Below are positions 32,696 to 33,423 of a DNA stretch of 35,007 nt, piece by piece. The notes beneath the pieces are model-generated. The model was given only the letters and a program-made list of their open reading frames with translations, did not search any database and had not been told where the DNA came from. This stretch comes from a virus, in IMG/VR virus record IMGVR_UViG_3300037502_001818, positions 1 through 35,007 of that record; one strand, given 5' to 3'. Each line of letters opens with the position of its first letter. Position 1 is the first letter of the stretch. The position numbers and the translations under genes are program-made.

Positions 32696-33423
32696 TGGCG
32701 GGCTACATCAAGCTCTATCGCGGTTGGCGAGACTGCGAGGCGTTTAAGGATGAGCCATGCACCCAAAGGGAGGCGTGGGTTTGGCTGCTGGAAAATGCGG
32801 CATGGAAACCTTGCAACCGCCGGGACGCGCAAGGCGCTCTGATCGCGATTGAGCGCGGGCAATTTCACACATCAATCCGGACTCTAGCTGCCGAGTGGCA
32901 ATGGTCGAGAGGGCGCGTAGAGCGTTTCCTAAATGATCTGAAAACGAGCCATATGGCGAGCCATGAAACGGGCCACGGTGGGCTGCTAATAACTATCTGC
33001 AATTACGACAAATATCAGGCTTACGAGCCAAGCGCAGGGCCAAGCTCGGGGCCAAGCGCAGGGCCATCGACGGGCCAAGCGCAGGGCCACACAAGAAGAA
33101 GTAAAGAAGGAAAAGAAGAAAAGAATGATAATGCGCGCAAGCGCGCTGTGGTTTGTCCTGATGGTGTTTCTGCCGAAGTGTGGGCAGATTTCCTCGCAAT
33201 CCGGCGGGCTAAGAAGGCCCCCCTGACTGACACGGCCATGAGGCAGATCGAGAGCGAGGCGGGCAAGGCGGGCTGGACTGTTGAGGCGGCTTTGACTGAG
33301 GCGGTTTCTAGGGGCTGGCAGGGGTTCAAGGCCGATTGGGTCAAGCAAGCGCCGGGGCCAAAGGGCAGAGAGGTGGCGGGCGGATGGTTGGACAAGGATG
33401 GGGATATTTTGCCTTATGCTTGA
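32695..33423 (+). CDS. Replisome organiser (lambda O-like) with internal iterons
   Basis: 242 aa, TAATG overlap. The N-terminal winged-helix type domain (MAGYIKLYRGWRDCEAFKDE, ALIAIERGQFHTSIRTLAAE, WQWSRGRVERFLNDLKT, then LLITICNYDKYQAYE) is that of phage replication initiators. A low-complexity linker (about residues 111-150) is encoded by 12-bp repeats and then a purine-rich Lys/Glu/Arg stretch. The C-terminal domain (GVSAEVWADFLAIRRAKKAP, then AALTEAVSRGWQGFKADWV) resembles helicase-loader ends. It would melt the origin in its own gene and load the helicase encoded next. Confidence 0.82.
   Translation: MAGYIKLYRGWRDCEAFKDEPCTQREAWVWLLENAAWKPCNRRDAQGALIAIERGQFHTSIRTLAAEWQWSRGRVERFLNDLKTSHMASHETGHGGLLITICNYDKYQAYEPSAGPSSGPSAGPSTGQAQGHTRRSKEGKEEKNDNARKRAVVCPDGVSAEVWADFLAIRRAKKAPLTDTAMRQIESEAGKAGWTVEAALTEAVSRGWQGFKADWVKQAPGPKGREVAGGWLDKDGDILPYA
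33027..33130 (+). other. Candidate replication origin: iterons plus purine-rich tract
   Basis: Units GCCAAGCGCAGG at 33027-33038, 33051-33062 and 33074-33085 are identical; GCCAAGCTCGGG at 33039-33050 and an 11-base GCCATCGACGG at 33063-33073 are variants. Because one unit is 11 bases, the last perfect copy is read in a different reading frame, so conservation is at DNA level. Positions 33091-33130 then form an almost pure-purine, AT-rich tract on the plus strand, in an otherwise GC-rich genome. This is the layout of lambda ori, also inside the initiator gene. Confidence 0.65.

Follow-up and report, generated by a model that had tools for sequence, protein, structure and literature searches.

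Does a run of short repeats inside the coding sequence of a phage gene mark the place where that phage starts to replicate its DNA? The window analyzed here, the whole 35,007-nucleotide stretch of IMG/VR virus record IMGVR_UViG_3300037502_001818, raises this question, and the original prediction had placed a lambda-like origin of iterons followed by a purine-rich tract within a putative initiator gene. Based on the window and its relatives, we conclude that the locus is very probably a theta-type replication origin of the phage, embedded in the phage's own initiator gene (Table 1).

TABLE 1 Features of the candidate origin region and the downstream gene, in window coordinates
Feature	Position	Strand	Basis or remark
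Putative initiator (replisome organizer) gene, 242 aa, host of the candidate origin	32695..33423	+	PHROG 2514, PHROG 678, fold prediction
Predicted winged-helix DNA-binding domain, residues 1-108	32695..33018	+	PHROG 2514, AlphaFold
Wing iterons, three 12-bp units, core GRGCCA	32946, 32958, 32970 (32946..32981)	+	In wing codons
Conserved AT-rich DNA block, fixed at synonymous sites	32986..33018	+	ATAACYATCTGYAATTACGACAAATATCAG at 32989-33018
Linker iterons, six units, core GRGCCA	33025, 33037, 33049, 33061, 33072, 33084 (33025..33089)	+	Spacing 12,12,12,11,12
Purine-rich AT tract, candidate unwinding element	33093..33130	+	Purine run, low stability
Predicted helical C-terminal domain, residues about 156-216	33160..33342	+	PHROG 678 positions 220-295, AlphaFold
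Zinc-finger part of primase-helicase, one frame	33416..33577	+	ORF 33398-33943
TOPRIM and DnaB-type helicase part, +1 frame	33573..35003	+	PHROG 239 (E 9e-79); Pfam DnaB_C, Toprim_2

The initiator gene and its two domains

The protein encoded by the gene that carries the repeats matched PHROG 2514 over residues 1 to 148 and PHROG 678 ("replication initiation O-like") over residues 135 to 227. Residues 1 to 108 matched PHROG 2514, a DnaD-like helicase loader family (E 2e-18), and the C-terminal piece matched PHROG 678 (E 2e-21) and not PHROG 2514. AlphaFold predicted an N-terminal domain with helices at residues 24 to 34, 61 to 68, and 72 to 84, followed by wing strands at residues 88 to 93 and 96 to 101 (pLDDT mostly >90). 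The predicted C-terminal domain consists of helices at residues 160 to 172, 179 to 191, 196 to 206, and 213 to 216 (pLDDT 95 to 98 up to about residue 210) and is the presumed contact to the helicase machinery. A disordered linker joins these two confidently folded domains, and iterons are encoded in it. The best Foldseek matches were winged-helix proteins with modest scores, none below E 0.001, and included 4pt7, described as "Structure of initiator." Pfam returned no match for the initiator protein, the DnaD domain included, up to E 0.5; a sequence search of solved structures found nothing significant, and blastn of phage records with the gene gave no match. The PHROG assignments and the two-domain architecture support the earlier impression of a replisome organizer, and the next gene, which had been called a helicase, is indeed a phage primase-helicase according to PHROG and Pfam.

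Iterons in the linker and in the wing

Perfect GCCAAGCGCAGG units start at positions 33027, 33051, and 33074, with a variant at 33039 and an 11-bp variant at 33063. The three perfect and two variant tandem units of the original prediction are thus present where it had placed them, and its observation that the last perfect unit is translated in another frame, as Gln-Ala-Gln, was correct. A sixth linker core, GGGCCACACAAG, starts at position 33084. Three further cores, absent from the original prediction, lie upstream within the wing codons, 12 bp apart. Altogether, nine copies of GRGCCA lie within 144 bp (32946-33089; spacing 12,12,|55|,12,12,12,11,12), compared with two at most per 150 bp elsewhere in the window; the maximum in 300 simulated sequences was four. 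The linker array is also the best tandem repeat of the window (TRF score of 92 versus 52 for the next place), and none of 1,000 codon shuffles encoding the same protein reached its array score (maximum, 82; median, 31). A DNA search with the full 12-mer, allowing 3 mismatches, gave 71 matches versus 75 expected and was uninformative.

Conservation of the repeats as DNA

Scans of viral contigs and bacterial genomes recovered close to 300 loci, overlaps included. From the first scans, we took 119 nonredundant members with a DNA-binding domain of the window type and anchored them on the end of the NYDKYQ motif. In the 96 nucleotides after this motif, autocorrelation peaked at lag 11 (mean z, 2.64) and lag 12 (mean z, 1.91), with harmonics at lags 22 to 24 and values below 0 at lags 10 and 13. 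The strongest lag was 11, 12, or 22 to 24 in 100 of the 119 relatives. Control segments did not have the lag-11 peak to the linker's degree, and the N-domain control, which overlaps the wing, had a weaker peak at lag 12.

When spacing was left free between 7 and 17, arrays scoring 8 or more were found in 95/119 relatives versus 11/119 in shuffles; the arrays of the other 24 were below this threshold and are weak or unrecognized. Spacings of 11 and 12 far outnumbered those of 10 and 13 (418 versus 34). Among mixed arrays, 12 was followed by 11 in 54 and 11 by 12 in 6; the final spacing of 12 in the window, versus 11 as usual in relatives, is slightly atypical. Because the codon-shuffle null of our initial array finder sometimes matched it, we rest significance on the autocorrelation, the codon shuffles of the window, the free-spacing arrays, and the core counts.

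The iterons themselves vary widely in sequence among relatives and include GGGACAGCAGC, CGACGCAGCAA, CCGGACAGAAA, and GGACCATCCGA, among others. In one relative (L027), the wing is coded by 3.7 perfect 11-bp units of GACCCAGCTTC, without a mismatch. Relatives that share only the C-terminal domain and have other DNA-binding domains (L031, L048 to L052, L056, L060, L063, and others) also often carry arrays at the corresponding junction, with periods of 11 or 22 bp.

An 11-bp period turns the reading frame, so that the same DNA encodes three peptides and no peptide repeat can explain the spacing. This bears on the explanation that slippage produced the repeats, which would then merely encode a low-complexity linker of the protein and have no function as DNA. 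The predicted disorder of the linker would suit such an origin of the repeats, as would the 12-bp units, which preserve the frame and yield a Pro-Ser-Ala-Gly repeat. However, the 11-bp spacing with rotating frames across the family argues strongly against slippage. The codon shuffles described above, the extension of the repeats into the folded wing, where sequence is shared with the linker, and the persistence of the spacing in relatives whose peptides differ also speak against it. We regard the slippage explanation as hardly tenable. The expectation that iteron spacing would be kept while codons drift, with the DNA rather than the peptide conserved, was borne out by the 11/12-bp period and rotating frames of the 119 relatives; rather than retaining a peptide linker and losing the DNA repeats, they had done the opposite.

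Covariation of iterons with the DNA-binding domain

Similarity between iterons followed similarity between DNA-binding domains, the wing excluded, with a partial Spearman coefficient of 0.24 that none of 300 permutations reached; this covariation is modest, and common ancestry of the gene segments contributes to it. The coefficient for the C-terminal domain was 0.03, and the trend with the DNA-binding domain was the same in pairs without C-terminal similarity. Tracking of the DNA-binding domain, and not of the C-terminal domain, is the behavior expected of binding sites, which the iterons would then be. The tandem repeats are present irrespective of this reading, and it is the covariation that supports binding by the cognate initiator.

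The wing DNA shares 9.9 5-mers with its own linker versus 3.5 with other linkers (permutation maximum, 4.5). Since the wing lies within the presumed DNA-binding surface, the contact element of the initiator appears to be partly written in its own sites.

A fixed block between the iteron clusters

The DNA between the wing and linker iterons contains a block that comprises codons 98 to 108 (VITICNYDKYQ in the family) and is conserved at silent sites far above what codon usage would give. Pairwise codon identity within the block is 0.97 versus 0.36 expected, and the window has 0 mismatches to the family consensus at 32989-33018. Codon 99 ends in A in 115/119 relatives, where 23 were expected, and in 83/85 of those from GC-rich phages (12 expected). 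Codons 102, 103, 106, and 107 are strongly biased as well, and most other codons of the N-domain are near expectation. The final A is shared by ATA, GTA, and CTA at codon 99, which indicates that the identity of the residue does not matter, and codon 99 lies outside all peptide patterns used for gathering loci, so the bias was not created by sampling. In a separate set, gathered with an Anoxybacillus phage query and from named phage records, the linker period was 11 and the third base of codon 99 was A in 18/18, which is weaker evidence than the GC-rich subset because this set is AT-rich and was selected for the NY motif.

We propose that the block is a second cis element of the origin. Candidate readers are an invariant surface of the initiator or a host factor; plain ease of melting is a further candidate. 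All four bases (A, T, C, and G) occur among the preferred third bases, which argues against plain AT-richness. Alternatively, the block might not be a DNA element of the origin and might instead reflect an RNA element or a choice of codons related to translation speed or to folding of the protein. The block is coding, its codon 99 is mostly the rare ATA, and we know of no protein partner for the block DNA, all of which would suit this alternative. We nevertheless consider it possible but unlikely: A ends codon 99 with Ile, Val, or Leu alike, so no single codon is retained, the favored third bases are not simply A and T, and the block is located between two iteron clusters. A search for an RNA element in the block gave no Rfam match and no significant fold (z, -1.4).

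Other candidate functions were rejected. By eye, no plausible -35/-10 promoter pair was present in the block on either strand. The block contains no DnaA box, and the three near-matches to TTATCCACA in the window are at chance level. A recombination boundary is disfavored because iterons downstream of the block still track the DNA-binding domain encoded upstream of it.

AT tract, duplex stability, and a proposed mechanism

The purine-rich tract after the iterons was confirmed, with 33093-33125 forming the strongest purine run of the window. The A+T content of the 38-nucleotide tract is within the top 0.01% of window positions. Averaged over the family, duplex stability has two minima, at the fixed block and at the AT tract, with stable iterons between them; in the window, the purine tract ranks as the 2nd least stable place and the fixed block as the 4th. 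An AT-rich tract follows the linker iterons in relatives as well, and spacings of 8 to 9 belong to this tract. Some AT tracts (e.g., in L008, L018, L047, L056, and L063) are made of short repeats of 7 to 9 bp, such as GAACAAGG or AACCAAT.

From this arrangement, we infer a path from binding through melting and helicase recruitment to initiation. The winged-helix domain would bind the 11/12-bp iterons, six in linker codons and three in wing codons, so that initiators would line up along one DNA face at about one per helical turn. The resulting nucleoprotein array would strain the flanking DNA, and one or both of the AT-rich flanks, the block and the purine tract, might open. The C-terminal domain would then recruit the phage's own primase-helicase, encoded next.

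The same repeats could instead be operators through which the initiator controls its own transcription or translation, with the origin elsewhere. Covariation between iterons and the N-domain fits any specific binding site, and repeats for repression of the gene by its own product would look similar. Yet the sites lie 250 to 390 bp inside the gene and, as is known from origins, have an AT-rich tract and another stability minimum next to them; no other array of comparable strength exists in the window. We therefore consider a purely regulatory role very unlikely and favor an origin at this locus. The alternative start at 27351-27468, named in the original prediction, was rejected, as no repeats were found there despite a DnaA-box-like TTATCCATA at 27439 and a nearby ORF (27718-28476) that encodes a DnaA domain IV-like helix-turn-helix (Pfam Bac_DnaA_C, E 1e-6, below the curated cutoff). 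Cumulative GC skew supports neither location because the curve rises almost monotonically over a mostly plus-strand gene map.

Comparison with known in-gene origins

The description of the locus as lambda-like holds for the layout and the presumed mechanism and fails for family membership, since the domains differ. As in lambda ori within gene O, direct repeats lie in the linker codons of the initiator and precede a purine-rich AT tract, and lambda O likewise has its DNA-binding domain before the repeats and its helicase-recruiting domain after them. However, the annotated iterons of lambda are 18-bp sites at intervals of 20 to 24 bp, whereas the units of the window are of 11/12 bp. The DNA-binding domain of lambda O is not detectably related, scoring below inclusion with the family HMM, and none of the PHROG matches of the window N-domain involved a part that includes the N-domain of lambda O. 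The C-terminal domain is also of another type than that of lambda O, and the next gene is a primase-helicase instead of a P gene. Because each of the two domains fails to match its positional counterpart in lambda O, we do not assign the initiator to the lambda O family. To our knowledge, lambda ori has no counterpart of the fixed block or of the wing iterons.

In lambda O (L236), the N-terminal part corresponds to the beginning of PHROG 678 and the C-terminal part to the end of PHROG 2514. The window and lambda O thus pair these families in opposite halves, a reciprocal combination in which the domains are joined in the repeat/AT linker. At the level of sequence matches (window 33142-33420 and 32695-33018 versus L236), this pairing suggests that domains may have been exchanged across the origin linker.

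The O genes of lambda and Stx phages are a precedent for in-gene origins, and the AT tract of Stx phages is dispensable for O binding and considered the unwinding site (PMC7466680). By analogy, this role would fit the division of labor proposed for the window. Complementation of ORF20 of Staphylococcus phage 80alpha in trans was not possible, which suggests an ori within the gene (PMC5499656). ORF20 resembles the window in its repeats and the AT-rich tract that follows them, both in the same relative position, and differs in its 15/30-bp repeats, in a DNA-binding domain that is unrelated by HMM search, and in the DnaC-like loader gene that comes next. In Bacillus phage SPP1, gp38 binds direct repeats in gene 38 (oriL) that adjoin an AT-rich unwinding element (PMC6316719); unlike the window, SPP1 also has oriR, a second origin, and encodes its loader, gp39, separately. 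Phage P1 oriL, likened here by description, lies inside its own initiator gene, repL. A study of an AT-rich region there reports that silent changes in it reduce RepL-mediated replication; an iteron array is not mentioned in the abstract (PMC9948254).

The DNA-binding domain of the window belongs with the DnaD-like helicase loaders of PHROG 2514 and PHROG 186, from which the window differs in its C-terminal domain of the PHROG 678 type. Named members from Staphylococcus, Enterococcus, Anoxybacillus, and Vibrio phages also have repeat arrays at this site, and their codon 99 ends in A. No PHROG 2514/186 member with a mapped origin was found in open-licence papers.

A possible shared design and recognition code

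In-gene origins are already known, and the window falls within one broad variant. Within open-licence papers, we found no earlier account of the wing iterons, the fixed block, or the DNA signature common to the family, and an earlier description elsewhere is possible. We know of no report of the fixed block from any model in-gene origin. One reading that joins these features, to which we give an even chance, is that phages of several bacterial groups share a design in which the wing is written in binding sites, so that specificity and site would coevolve. In this design, the 30-bp block, constant while the iterons change, would be a second essential cis element beyond the iterons, either an unwinding site or the binding site of an invariant factor.

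In-gene phage origins have been represented by few models, each studied alone, and here one DNA signature points to such origins in more than 100 diverse phages. In this family, DNA-binding domains and their sites come as a natural series of pairs, and a recognition code could be read from it. Comparison across the family also exposes the fixed DNA block, and all readings of the locus are amenable to silent mutations.

The split primase-helicase gene

The downstream primase-helicase is split, with the zinc finger in one frame and the TOPRIM and helicase parts in the +1 frame. Nine other loci have their two parts in this +1 relation as well (L003, L041, L023, L156, L193, L096, L020, L027, and L155), where the zinc-finger frame stays open for 141 to 555 nucleotides past the last CxxC. 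In L091, the zinc finger and helicase are in a single ORF, and in L041 there is no ATG at the junction. Programmed frameshifting and internal initiation are both possibilities for the split gene, T7 gp4A/4B being an example of the latter.
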